Assembly (NCBI RefSeq): GCF_000170755.1
Contig: NZ_ABCK01000007.1
Span: 248,001 to 312,000 of the forward strand
DNA from: Lentisphaera araneosa HTCC2155
Lineage (GTDB): Bacteria; Verrucomicrobiota; Lentisphaeria; Lentisphaerales; Lentisphaeraceae
Reading direction: 5' to 3'
Length of the DNA stretch: 64,000 nt
The position numbers were made by a program, and so were the translations under genes. Shown piece after piece: positions 25,957 to 32,535 of this stretch (its first letter is position 1; each line of letters begins with the position of its first letter). The notes under the pieces were generated by a model that did not search any database, was not told where the DNA came from, and saw only the letters and a list, made by a program, of their open reading frames with translations.

Positions 25957-26457
25957 ATGAGAATTTTACTATTCAGCCTGATGCTGTTTTCATTGATTTC
26001 GTGCTCGACTGATATTCATAATTATGAAGAAAAGAAGTTGTCGTCGACGCTACAGAATATGTTTCCTGATGGGGTGACTTATGCAGATGGTGATGAAGTT
26101 GATTTGCGCGTTTTACAAGATAAAACCTTAGCGCTTTATTTTACCTCCAGTAATAATCCACAGTCACCTGAGTTTGAAAGCTTACTTAGAGATATGGCTA
26201 TAAAATACGACTATCGTTTAAGCGTGGTCGTTGTGAATTCAGGTCCAGATTATGAGGAGTTTGCCGAATATATGGACAAGTATGGCTCTGATTTTTTTAT
26301 TGTATCAGATAAGCGCAGTAAAACATTGACTTCTAAGTATAAAATTGTGAAGACTCCGACGCTTATTATTTATGGGATGAATGGAGAGTTAATTGAAGAA
26401 GATGGTGTGGAATCACTCGTTAATAACTATCCAAGAATTGTACCTGATTGGGAATGA
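25957..26457 (+). CDS. Thioredoxin-fold lipoprotein lacking the CxxC motif, 166 aa
   Basis: The ATG at 25957 with AAGGA upstream gives a lipoprotein signal ending L-I-S-C-S, so the mature protein would be lipid-anchored. The body follows the nucleoredoxin/TlpA-like pattern: L-A-L-Y-F-T-S-S, then N-N-P-Q-S-P-E-F where the active W-C-x-x-C would lie, and the cis-proline loop I-V-K-T-P-T-L-I-I-Y-G. Both redox cysteines are missing, so it cannot be a normal thiol oxidoreductase. Its stop overlaps the start of the cyclophilin lipoprotein gene, implying coupled synthesis and possibly an accessory role in envelope protein folding. Confidence 0.75.
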   Translation: MRILLFSLMLFSLISCSTDIHNYEEKKLSSTLQNMFPDGVTYADGDEVDLRVLQDKTLALYFTSSNNPQSPEFESLLRDMAIKYDYRLSVVVVNSGPDYEEFAEYMDKYGSDFFIVSDKRSKTLTSKYKIVKTPTLIIYGMNGELIEEDGVESLVNNYPRIVPDWE

Positions 26458-27104
26458 TGATGAAATTATTTAAACTCTTAGTGTTAGCTCTGTTTATTGT
26501 TGGCTGCCAAAGTTCAGATAGCTCAAAAGAGACTCAAGCTGAAATGACTCCAGTGCCGAATAAGCCCTCCAAGCCATATAGTCATCCAGTTGTTAAAATC
26601 ACTAGCTCTAAAGGTGTAATGATTGCTGAGCTTTATGAAGACAAATCACCAAATACGGTAGCGAACTTTGTGAGTTTAACTGAAAGTGGTTTTTATAACG
26701 ATATGCATTTTCACCGTGTTATTCGTGGTTTTATGGCTCAGGGTGGATGTCCTTATTCTCGCAGTAATGACAAGACACGAAAACGTCCAGGGACTGGTGG
26801 TCCAGGTTATAGTTTCAATAACGAAACACACCCCCAGTTGCGCCATTCGCAAAAAGGGATTCTATCCATGGCGAATTCGGGCCCACATACCAATGGCAGT
26901 CAGTTTTTCATTCTCTTCAAAGAGTCGAGTTTTTTAAACGGGAGCTATAATGTGTTTGGTCGGGTTATTGAAGGTTTAGATGTTTTAGATAAAATTGAAG
27001 CAATTGGTGCCCAGCGTGATGGCTTCCCACTCAAAGAAAAAGTGACTTTTTCAGTTGAGTTGCTACAAAAAAATGATCACCTCTACAAAGTAAAAAAGAA
27101 CTAA
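26454..27104 (+). CDS. Cyclophilin-type peptidyl-prolyl isomerase lipoprotein, 216 aa
   Basis: Three consecutive ATG codons (26454, 26457, 26460) overlap the previous stop; the first is taken. The lipobox I-V-G-C indicates a lipid-anchored periplasmic protein. The cyclophilin domain (about 45-205) has F-H-R-V-I-R-G-F-M-A-Q-G-G, G-P-G-Y-S-F-N-N-E and S-Q-F-F-I-L-F, i.e. the catalytic Arg and substrate-pocket residues. It has a cytoplasmic paralogue immediately downstream. AGCTCAAAAG...K-P-Y-S-H-P forms a short linker after the lipobox. Confidence 0.9.
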   Translation: MMMKLFKLLVLALFIVGCQSSDSSKETQAEMTPVPNKPSKPYSHPVVKITSSKGVMIAELYEDKSPNTVANFVSLTESGFYNDMHFHRVIRGFMAQGGCPYSRSNDKTRKRPGTGGPGYSFNNETHPQLRHSQKGILSMANSGPHTNGSQFFILFKESSFLNGSYNVFGRVIEGLDVLDKIEAIGAQRDGFPLKEKVTFSVELLQKNDHLYKVKKN

Positions 27105-27131
27105 AAGTAAGAAAAAATTAAGGAAGAGATT

Positions 27132-27659
27132 ATGTCCAATCCTCGCGTTAAAATCATTACCGACAAGGGTACAATGATCGCTGAGCTTTTCGAAGATAAA
27201 GCTCCAAATACAGTTGCTAACATGATTGAGTTAGCTGAATCTGGGTTCTATAAAGATTTACGTTTCCATCGCATATTGAAGGGCTTTATGGCTCAGGGTG
27301 GATGCCCAAATACGAAGAAAGATGCAGAATCTGGTTCGCCTGGTACTGGTGGTCCTGGTTACACATTTGATAATGAGCATCACCCAGAAGCTAAGCACGA
27401 CGCACGTGGTATTCTTTCTATGGCTAATGCTGGACCTAATACGAATGGCAGTCAGTTCTTCGTTTGCTTTGGTGCAACGCCATTCTTAGATGGTGGCTAC
27501 AGTGTGTTTGGTCAAGTCGTTGAAGGTCTCGAAGTGATCGATGCTCTCGAAGCAGTTGGTTCTGCTCAGGATCCGATCCCACCATCAGAAAAAGTTTACT
27601 TCTCAATTGAAGTTGAATCCAAAGGCGATAAAGACTACAAAGTTAGCAAAAACGGCTAA
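27132..27659 (+). CDS. Cyclophilin-type peptidyl-prolyl cis-trans isomerase, cytoplasmic, 175 aa
   Basis: There is no signal peptide. Catalytic and pocket residues lie in F-H-R-I-L-K-G-F-M-A-Q-G-G and G-S-Q-F-F-V-C-F, with F-G-Q-V-V-E-G-L near the end. It is closely similar to the preceding lipoprotein cyclophilin, suggesting a local duplication with one copy re-targeted. AGGAAGAG precedes the ATG. The metallophosphoesterase ATG follows directly after its TAA. Confidence 0.93.
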   Translation: MSNPRVKIITDKGTMIAELFEDKAPNTVANMIELAESGFYKDLRFHRILKGFMAQGGCPNTKKDAESGSPGTGGPGYTFDNEHHPEAKHDARGILSMANAGPNTNGSQFFVCFGATPFLDGGYSVFGQVVEGLEVIDALEAVGSAQDPIPPSEKVYFSIEVESKGDKDYKVSKNG

Positions 27660-29652: not shown

Positions 29653-29762
29653 TTCTGAGTAAAAGATAGCTATAAATCCATTTTTTCACCTTAGAAATTA
29701 TGGACTTCAAAATTAGCAGGCTTAAATTTGAGTATCATATTATTTATTTTAGGAGTTTGTCT

Positions 29763-31604
29763 ATGAAGAAGTTTTTGCCAATTTTTAGTTTGGCTGTTGT
29801 CCTACTACAATCATGTAGTTCACAATACAGCGAATGGGAAAAGCCCTTACCGGAAGGTGAAATTGTTCCTGGTGTAGAGTTAACACCTGACCCCATTGAG
29901 CGTGCCAACCGCGTGAGTTATTACGTAGATGATAAGTTGATGAACTACATTATTGAACCAGCTTCGGACGGTTATCGTTATGTTGTGCCAGAAACTGGAC
30001 GAACTGGTATTAACAATTTCTTTGATAATATTCTCTTCCCTAGAAACTTTATCAATAACCTCCTCCAAGCTGATTGGGATGGTTTAGGTAGGACTACTGA
30101 CCGCTTTATTCTTAATACAACTATTGGTATTCTTGGTTTCCGTGATGTTGCTGCAGACAAATATAATCTAAAAGCGGCGAAACAAGACACAGGTAAGACT
30201 TTTGCTAAATGGGGATGGGAAAATAATTTCTATCTTTATATACCCCTCTTAGGTCCAAGTTCAGATCGTGATTTAGTTGGTAAAGTAGGTGACTATTTTA
30301 TGAACCCACTCAATTACGATAAAGACGCAAAGATACTCAATTACTTCTTGATCTTTAACCGAGCGACTTTCTTTACGGATGCCTACCGCGCTTTAAATGA
30401 AACTCAGTACGACCCTTATGACTTACGTCGTTTGATCTACTCTGTGACGCGTCGTTACAATACAGATCCAATCAGTTTCCAAGGTGAAGATTCACCTGCA
30501 ACACAAACTTTAAGAGCTGTTTACTTGCAGCCACGTGAAAAAGATTTTGAAGACTGGAAAGAAGAAGGTGAGCTTCAGGTAGCCAGCACTGGCGAAACCA
30601 TTAATTATAACTACTGGTTACAAAATAAACCAGCGCCACTCATGTACGTGATTCCAGGTCTTGGCTCACATAGAAGTTCTGGTCAGCCAATGTTCCTCGC
30701 AGAGATGGCTTACATGAAGGGTTATAATGTTGTGACTTTCTCGAATCTCATGAATTTTGAGCCAGTGCTCAAATCTAAAGAAGGTACGTACCCTGGATAT
30801 ACACCAAAAGATGTTAAGAATATCAAAAAGTTCATGTCAGCAATTGATGCGGATCTTGAAAAGAATTACGTAGGTCAATTTGGTGATAGATCTGTTATGG
30901 GTGTATCGCTCGGGGCATACTACCTGCTCAACTTAGCCGCAAGTGAAACCGAAGAAGATGCTTTAAAATTCAATAAATATATTGCGATTGATTCTCCGCT
31001 AGATCTTCTTTATGGTCTTAAACAACTCGACAAATCATATAATGCACCGCTTGCTCTAGAGACACAAGAAGAGAGAGAAAGATTTGTTCTTGGTACTCTA
31101 ACAAAAGTCGCTGCGATCCTCGCAAATGGCCAAAAAATAGAACACAATCAAAATATGCCATTTACAGATGCTGAAGCCAACTATTTAATAGGTTTAAGTT
31201 TCCGCAAAACACTTCGTGATATGCTCTTTATTAGTGCCTACCAAGAAGAAATCATGGCCAATAATGAGTTCACACCAAAGAATGGTCTCTACGATACACT
31301 AAGTCAGTACTCATGGGAAGATTATTATAAGAATTTTGTTATGCCTAAATTATTAGAGACAGGCTTAAGTGAAGAGCAAGTTGCTAAAGATGTAAGCCTC
31401 AAGTCACTCACAGATAAGCTTAAAGCTAATGATCGCATTTTTGTGTTTACTAACAAAAACGATTTCTTAAATGAAGCAGGAAGTGATGAGTGGGTAAAAT
31501 CAACTTTTGGTGACCGCGCAAAAGTATTTGAAGATGGTGGTCACTTAGGTGATCTTATCACAGATAAAGTGAGATCTGAAATTGTTGAAGTTTTAGAAAA
31601 ATAA
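29763..31604 (+). CDS. MlaA (VacJ) lipoprotein fused to an alpha/beta hydrolase, 613 aa
   Basis: The ATG at 29763 has AGGAG 7 bases upstream and opens a lipoprotein signal with Cys18 (L-Q-S-C-S); the ATG at 29700 lacks both. Residues about 40-240 are MlaA: D-P-I-E-R-A-N-R, P-E-T-G-R-T-G-I-N-N-F-F-D-N, N-T-T-I-G-I-L-G-F-R-D-V-A and P-L-L-G-P-S-S-D-R-D. Residues about 300-613 are an alpha/beta hydrolase with Ser382 in G-V-S-L-G, Asp567 in N-K-N-D-F and His594 in G-G-H-L. MlaA removes mislocalised phospholipid from the outer leaflet of the outer membrane; fusion to a putative lipase would couple extraction to cleavage. It ends at a strong terminator. Confidence 0.85.
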   Translation: MKKFLPIFSLAVVLLQSCSSQYSEWEKPLPEGEIVPGVELTPDPIERANRVSYYVDDKLMNYIIEPASDGYRYVVPETGRTGINNFFDNILFPRNFINNLLQADWDGLGRTTDRFILNTTIGILGFRDVAADKYNLKAAKQDTGKTFAKWGWENNFYLYIPLLGPSSDRDLVGKVGDYFMNPLNYDKDAKILNYFLIFNRATFFTDAYRALNETQYDPYDLRRLIYSVTRRYNTDPISFQGEDSPATQTLRAVYLQPREKDFEDWKEEGELQVASTGETINYNYWLQNKPAPLMYVIPGLGSHRSSGQPMFLAEMAYMKGYNVVTFSNLMNFEPVLKSKEGTYPGYTPKDVKNIKKFMSAIDADLEKNYVGQFGDRSVMGVSLGAYYLLNLAASETEEDALKFNKYIAIDSPLDLLYGLKQLDKSYNAPLALETQEERERFVLGTLTKVAAILANGQKIEHNQNMPFTDAEANYLIGLSFRKTLRDMLFISAYQEEIMANNEFTPKNGLYDTLSQYSWEDYYKNFVMPKLLETGLSEEQVAKDVSLKSLTDKLKANDRIFVFTNKNDFLNEAGSDEWVKSTFGDRAKVFEDGGHLGDLITDKVRSEIVEVLEK

Positions 31605-31761: not shown

Positions 31762-32535
31762 ATGGGTTTATTACAAAGATTAGGTGAGTCAATTGCCGGT
31801 TATTTGGCTCGTGAAAGACCGAGGGGTATGTATGTGGCGACCTCTAACCCTGAGTTGCTCAAGAAAAATCTAAAACCAGGTGATGTCCTCTTAGTGGAAG
31901 GGAGTAGTCGCTTTAGCTCAGCTATTAAGTATATCACACAGTCCACATGGTCTCATTCAGCGATCTATGTGGGTGATTGTGGCCTAGAAGCTGAAGGTGA
32001 AGAGAAGGCGGTTCTTATTGAAGCGGACGTTGTTGAAGGTGTACGAGCTGTGCCCATTAGTCAATACACTTCTTTTCATACACGGATCTGCCGTCCTGTA
32101 GGTATTACTCCTGATGAATTAAAAGATCTAATCCAGTTTCTAATTGATCGTTTAGGTTATCAGTACGATTTGAAGAATATATTTGATTTAGCCAGATATT
32201 TTCTGCATCCACCACCCATTCCAACAAAGTGGCGTCGCCAATTATTAGCACTTGGTAGTGGAGATCCCACACGAGCCATTTGTTCTTCTTTAATTGCGAT
32301 GGCTTTTCAGTCAGTTAAATATCCCATCTTGCCAGAGCGGTTACAACCATGTGAGGAAGATGATGAATGTCGTGAGCTCTATCACATACGGCATCATAGC
32401 CTCTTTGCGCCACGGGACTTTGATGTTTCACCATATTTTGAAATAGTTAAGCCAACGATATATCAAGATTTTGATCCGCATCAATTACTTTGGGCAACTG
32501 ACGAAGAGTTGCGTAAGATGGAATTGCGTTTTTAG
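31762..32535 (+). CDS. YiiX/YebB-like permuted papain-fold (NlpC/P60 superfamily) protein, 257 aa
   Basis: The permuted order is visible: His65 in W-S-H-S-A-I-Y-V-G comes first, then a conserved acidic I-E-A-D-V-V-E-G-V segment, then the nucleophile Cys174 in A-I-C-S-S-L-I-A. The opening L-K-P-G-D-V-L-L-V-E-G is typical of the YiiX/YaeF group, proposed amidases or lipid/peptide hydrolases. No signal peptide is present; residues 5-20 are amphipathic and might contact membrane. The 3' end overlaps the convergent SurA-like gene by four bases. Confidence 0.8.
   Translation: MGLLQRLGESIAGYLARERPRGMYVATSNPELLKKNLKPGDVLLVEGSSRFSSAIKYITQSTWSHSAIYVGDCGLEAEGEEKAVLIEADVVEGVRAVPISQYTSFHTRICRPVGITPDELKDLIQFLIDRLGYQYDLKNIFDLARYFLHPPPIPTKWRRQLLALGSGDPTRAICSSLIAMAFQSVKYPILPERLQPCEEDDECRELYHIRHHSLFAPRDFDVSPYFEIVKPTIYQDFDPHQLLWATDEELRKMELRF

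Follow-up and report, generated by a model that had tools for sequence, protein, structure and literature searches.

A fused MlaA-MlaY lipoprotein in Lentisphaera araneosa, recurrent in Lentisphaeria, with a probable role in extracting and degrading misplaced phospholipids

The fusion gene and its surroundings

The window analyzed in this study is a stretch of 64,000 nucleotides from Lentisphaera araneosa HTCC2155 (contig NZ_ABCK01000007.1), and it contains at 29763..31604, on the forward strand, a single open frame without interruption, which ORF analysis and profile searches identify as the coding sequence of an MlaA-MlaY (MlaZ-MlaY) fusion lipoprotein of 613 aa. Translation from 29763 gives an N terminus with the features of a lipoprotein signal, MKKFLPIFSLAVVLLQSC, in which we predict a signal peptide (29763..29816, +) ending at a lipid-modified Cys18 (LQS-C), whereas translation from an alternative ATG at 29700 would place 21 extra residues before this signal. 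The start at 29763, already chosen in the original prediction, is the better one, because a Shine-Dalgarno sequence, AGGAG, is found 7 bases 5' of its ATG (29751..29755, +) and the lipoprotein signal begins there. A cysteine occurs at the matching place in most of the relatives with a short interdomain linker, and a few of them resemble SPase I substrates; by analogy with MlaYZ, we infer that the fusion lipoprotein resides in the outer membrane. A broken or misassembled double gene was also considered and is ruled out, since the fusion is present at 83 to 89% identity in two congeners.

As for the neighboring genes, the fusion is followed at 31762-32532 by a gene for a permuted papain-like YaeF/YiiX (C92) protein (PF05708). 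Upstream, at 26448-27656, two tandem cyclophilin-type prolyl isomerases, the first of which has a lipoprotein-like signal, come behind infB and a thioredoxin-like lipoprotein.

Domain composition and catalytic residues

The N-terminal 240 residues of the protein had been described as a clear MlaA, and the profile search agrees, with PF04333 matching residues 43 to 232 (29889..30458, +) at an E value of 2e-52 and a score of 178 bits versus a curated cut-off of 25. A short linker of about 5 residues (about residues 238 to 242; 30474..30488, +), which measures 5 to 8 aa among the short-linker relatives, separates the MlaA match from that of an MlaY-type alpha/beta-hydrolase domain, assigned by profiles and homology to residues about 243 to 613 (30489..31601, +). 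Searched alone, the C-terminal half of the window's fusion gave no Pfam match; among 32 aligned relatives, Abhydrolase_1 matches 16 (best E value, 2.3e-9) and Abhydrolase_6 matches 13. Moreover, the profile of the C-terminal domain retrieved weak matches from the PDB, mainly to alpha/beta hydrolases (best E value, 0.0097). An AlphaFold2 model of the fusion, computed with an alignment made up solely of its 89% identical relative, had a pLDDT of 30.8 and no usable fold. The hydrolase fold proposed earlier for the C-terminal half is therefore supported by profiles and by the published family.

The candidate triad Ser382-Asp567-His594 could be confirmed in the sequence and in the conserved columns of the alignment. 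In particular, Ser382 (30906..30908, +) is aligned as the nucleophile in a G-V-S-L-G elbow, Asp567 (31461..31463, +) as the triad acid, and His594 (31542..31544, +) as the triad base, with the serine and the histidine conserved in 52/52 aligned domains and the aspartate in 51/52. The sole exception is the MlaY of Fusobacterium (L036:4725-6041), where a glutamate replaces the aspartate. The residues G299, D350, G380, G384, G592, and G596 are invariant in the same 52 domains; G299 belongs to a P-G-L-G-S-H motif (residues 298 to 303; 30654..30671, +), which probably forms the oxyanion-hole loop. A large stretch, from about residue 413 to about residue 560, lies between Ser382 and Asp567.

The P. 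aeruginosa residues opposite S382, D567, and H594 are numbers 282, 483, and 510 of a stop-to-stop frame, and subtraction of the 95 codons ahead of the annotated start (locus 4740) gives 187, 388, and 415. The published triad of P. aeruginosa MlaY is Ser187, Asp388, and His415 (PMC11977310), so that the three residues of the window coincide exactly with those of MlaY (PA3238).

Homology to MlaY and comparison with the MlaYZ pair

A tblastn search of a plasmid collection, with the C-terminal part of the fusion as the query, returned matches in P. aeruginosa, Skermanella, and Fusobacterium, for most records with a best E value between 3e-16 and 6e-20; the match to P. aeruginosa PA3238/MlaY (E value, 6e-20) covers 85% of the query, and the identity between the hydrolase domain of the fusion and Pseudomonas MlaY is about 25%. 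An annotated VacJ/MlaA gene directly follows the MlaY homologue in P. aeruginosa and Skermanella, and in the Fusobacterium record, which comes without a gene table, the next frame encodes an MlaA lipoprotein. Judging by how the genes are arranged and by the numbering of the triad, the P. aeruginosa records would correspond to the PA3238-PA3239 locus. Two of these, filed as plasmids (pPALO11, L037; pHOU1-1, L033), carry an mlaYZ region of chromosomal appearance; the mlaY of pPALO11 is unannotated, has its matches split over two frames, and looks broken. On the basis of homology, which the profile searches and the MlaY tree also support, and of the triad, we identify the C-terminal domain of the fusion as MlaY.

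In P. aeruginosa, MlaZ (PA3239), a paralogue of MlaA, and MlaY (PA3238), a periplasmic phospholipase, are separate neighbors (PMC11131202, PMC11977310, PMC12569750). According to a published proposal, MlaZ removes misplaced phospholipid from the outer leaflet and delivers it to MlaY, which degrades it (PMC11131202, PMC12569750); both articles trace this proposal back to Guest et al. (2023, PNAS 120:e2302546120). MlaY has been described as a lipase, and less cardiolipin is degraded in mlaY and mlaZ mutants (PMC11977310). The statement in the original prediction that no characterized example was known consequently does not hold, since MlaZ-MlaY of P. aeruginosa is proposed to work exactly in this manner; by contrast, the coupling of extraction to degradation that it put forward is supported as the likely logic of the fusion.

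The two systems share an MlaA-family protein, a homologous alpha/beta-hydrolase lipase with an identical triad, and the proposed logic of extracting and then degrading. They differ in that Pseudomonas has two genes, in the order MlaY-MlaZ, and Lentisphaera one chain, in the order MlaA-MlaY. Furthermore, P. aeruginosa has, beside MlaZ, a separate canonical MlaA encoded elsewhere in its genome (PMC11131202), whereas the genome studied here has the fusion as its single MlaA. It follows that the principle of extraction and digestion was already known from MlaYZ and that, as far as we checked, the single-chain arrangement is new.

The rest of the Mla system in the genome

The search for the remaining mla genes, as suggested in the original prediction, detected MlaE and MlaD and did not detect MlaC. 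The fusion is the sole MlaA match in the 6.02-Mb genome. A cluster of MlaE, ATPase, and MlaD-type genes, with no MlaC within it, is located on contig 42 (L050:5876-8532), and a protein of 884 residues encoded on contig 11 (L051:2364-5015) carries several MlaD (MCE) domains and resembles the tunnels of the LetB/PqiB type in its make-up. No match to PF05494 (MlaC) was obtained in the genome by a search that was positive in the E. coli and Caulobacter controls; judged from this one profile and from a draft that is about 97% complete, MlaC is likely absent. No MlaC was found in the five other genomes of the family that were searched. Likewise, PldA (PF02253) was not detected in the genome, with E. 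coli as the positive control.

Compared to the canonical Mla system of E. coli (MlaA-MlaC-MlaFEDB), this genome has the MlaA module in common, as well as MlaE and MlaD-type genes at other loci, and differs in having no detected MlaC and a lipase fused behind the MlaA core. PldA also removes misplaced phospholipid by hydrolysis; however, it is an outer-membrane beta-barrel of a family different from that of the MlaY lipase and, unlike the fusion, it was not found in this genome.

Distribution of the fusion and of its partners

The fusion recurs widely in the 388 genomes of the phylum, as the original prediction had proposed to verify: full-length fusions occur in the genus of the window, in its family, and across numerous further families of the class; the nearest named relative, that of Lentisphaera marina, is 89% identical over its full length. 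A survey of 149 class genomes, tallied manually from the profile-search tables and considering strong matches for MlaY, found MlaY in 106 genomes, MlaA in 117, and MlaC in 15. Both MlaA and MlaY are encoded in 105 of these genomes. In eight of the 105 (G040, G052, G055, G132, G198, G214, G219, and G279), the MlaA gene is directly followed by a separate MlaY gene, and in the others the two form a single frame, with a few frames interrupted by contig ends or a frameshift. The fusion is therefore the standard arrangement in Lentisphaeria.

MlaC is present in 11 of the 12 class genomes that have MlaA without MlaY, and there the two genes nearly always adjoin where the sequences were read. Conversely, MlaC occurs in 2 of the 106 MlaY genomes, G410 and G411, in each of which contamination reaches 9% and MlaA is matched twice. 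The table of MlaY against MlaC (2, 104, 13, 30) gives a Fisher p value of 1.5e-6, which, the genomes being related, serves to describe the pattern and not to test it. The choice between MlaC and MlaY as a partner is nearly exclusive in the class.

Outside the class, fusions were found in three genomes (G173, G216, and G244), and these (L006/L052 of G173, L009 of G216, and L008 of G244) cluster with the Lentisphaera-type ones. The MlaA tree pairs the fusion of G173 with that of G236, a genome of the window's family, with a support of 99/93, and for this reason it suggests gene transfer of the fusion between classes. G173 also has a canonical MlaC-MlaA pair in addition to its fusion, much as in P. 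aeruginosa. In G236 (L054:4900-5658), the fusion lies tail to tail with an orphan gene for an MlaF-like ABC ATPase, with no MlaE or MlaD directly adjoining.

Types of fusion and their possible origins

Two types of fusion could be distinguished by the region between the MlaA and MlaY matches. The short-linker type occurs in the genus and family of the window and in several other families, and the long-linker type, with 28 to 69 mostly hydrophilic residues, in others. The MlaY proteins of the split pairs start with a signal peptide of their own. In a tree of 67 MlaA domains, the short-linker and the long-linker fusions each have a clade of their own (100/98 in both cases), and that of the long-linker fusions is nested within the split pairs (joint clade, 100/97). 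In the MlaY tree, the split pairs come out as sister to the long-linker fusions. We accordingly favor two independent fusions as the simplest reading; a single early fusion followed by one split would fit the MlaY tree equally well. A single origin had been indicated by a first tree, which included the best-scoring fusions only and, being biased in its sampling, was replaced by the 67-domain tree. One genome, G117, has two diverged long-linker fusions (L079 and L080), and the branch of L080 is long in both trees.

The MlaZ proteins of Pseudomonas, Skermanella, and Fusobacterium stand beside E. coli MlaA, among the MlaC-partnered proteins, in a part of the tree where deep support is uneven and the E. 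coli row is long. With the same uneven deep support, the MlaA half of the fusion does not group with P. aeruginosa MlaZ, and the MlaY-partnered MlaA proteins do not form one clade; the two halves may thus have been re-paired. Since there is no single MlaY-partnered clade that includes Pseudomonas MlaZ, the name MlaZ denotes, for the MlaA half of the fusion, a role and not a descent.

Among the papers searched, none contained both MlaA and Lentisphaer; a review on MlaA (PMC11131202) is without the words "fused" and "fusion," and other searches of titles and abstracts gave no relevant fused MlaA. In the papers searched, which did not include Guest et al. (2023), we found no description of the fusion or its spread, of a probable double origin, or of a class-wide alternation between MlaC and MlaY that is nearly exclusive; as far as could be checked, these findings are new, as is a genome with the fusion as its only MlaA and with neither MlaC nor PldA detected.

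Proposed mechanism and alternative explanations

We consider it likely that the fusion is a single-chain MlaZ-MlaY pathway, in which extraction would be followed by direct hand-over to the lipase. The MlaA module, a lipoprotein, would be seated in the outer membrane, where its channel would take up phospholipid misplaced in the outer leaflet; the lipid would then be handed, at the periplasmic face, to the tethered MlaY lipase rather than to MlaC for return to the inner membrane. The Ser382-Asp567-His594 triad would cleave the acyl chains, and the fatty acid and lysophospholipid released into the periplasm would be recycled. Enzyme activity, location, direction of lipid flow, and direct hand-over are all transferred to the fusion from MlaYZ by analogy.

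In E. coli, the MlaA tail (residues 227 to 251) recruits MlaC, which docks where the channel opens to the periplasm (PMC10719372, PMC10245069). The lipase domain of the fusion begins at about the place where E. coli MlaA has this tail, and therefore it would hang where MlaC docks, a placement that is suggestive of direct hand-over. The further idea that the lipase has replaced an MlaC-binding tail is weakened by the fact that the MlaC-partnered MlaA proteins of Lentisphaeria likewise have no E. coli-like tail.

It is also possible to hypothesize that the hydrolase domain is an acyltransferase, which would move an acyl chain from the extracted phospholipid to an acceptor (a lipoprotein, LPS, or another lipid) instead of water. 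Acyltransferases occur among the alpha/beta hydrolases, and a cap or an acceptor site could lie within the large stretch from about residue 413 to about residue 560. Nevertheless, loss of MlaY lowers cardiolipin degradation and MlaY has been described as a lipase (PMC11977310), and no acceptor-specific feature was found; we regard this explanation as unlikely. Another view would see in the MlaA half a mere outer-membrane anchor and docking site for a lipase acting on food or foreign-cell lipids that reach the periplasm. Lentisphaera is a marine heterotroph, and MlaA modules can specialize, as illustrated by P. aeruginosa, which has both MlaA and MlaZ; however, the full MlaA core has been kept, with PF04333 above the cut-off in 117 genomes of the class, and a channel module of 190 residues, conserved over such distances, would be needless for a simple anchor, which makes this view very improbable.

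The MlaE and MlaD-type genes in the genome could instead indicate that the fusion still feeds an MlaC-independent transport to an MlaFED-like complex, with the hydrolase only editing or checking the lipid. Against this stand the failure to find MlaC in the genome itself and in the five others searched in the family and the observation that the genomes with MlaC mostly have a lipase-free MlaA, and we give this possibility hardly any weight.

Implications

Within the literature searched, the passage of lipid from MlaZ to MlaY in Pseudomonas has the status of a proposal, and a natural fusion that has probably arisen twice provides independent evidence that MlaZ and MlaY act as a unit. Moreover, a single chain in which the channel is tethered to the enzyme is convenient for structural work and for the question of the direction in which MlaA moves lipid, given that placing a lipase on the periplasmic side is most sensible if lipid flows inward from the outer leaflet. 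For most Lentisphaeria, we tentatively suggest, with confidence just short of even, that the entire MlaA route has been rewired from the return of phospholipid through MlaC to its destruction on the spot, and that, because the extractor appears to have been fused to a lipase twice independently, degradation, and not retrograde transport, may be the main means by which outer-membrane asymmetry is kept up, with the MlaFED-like complexes serving another purpose.
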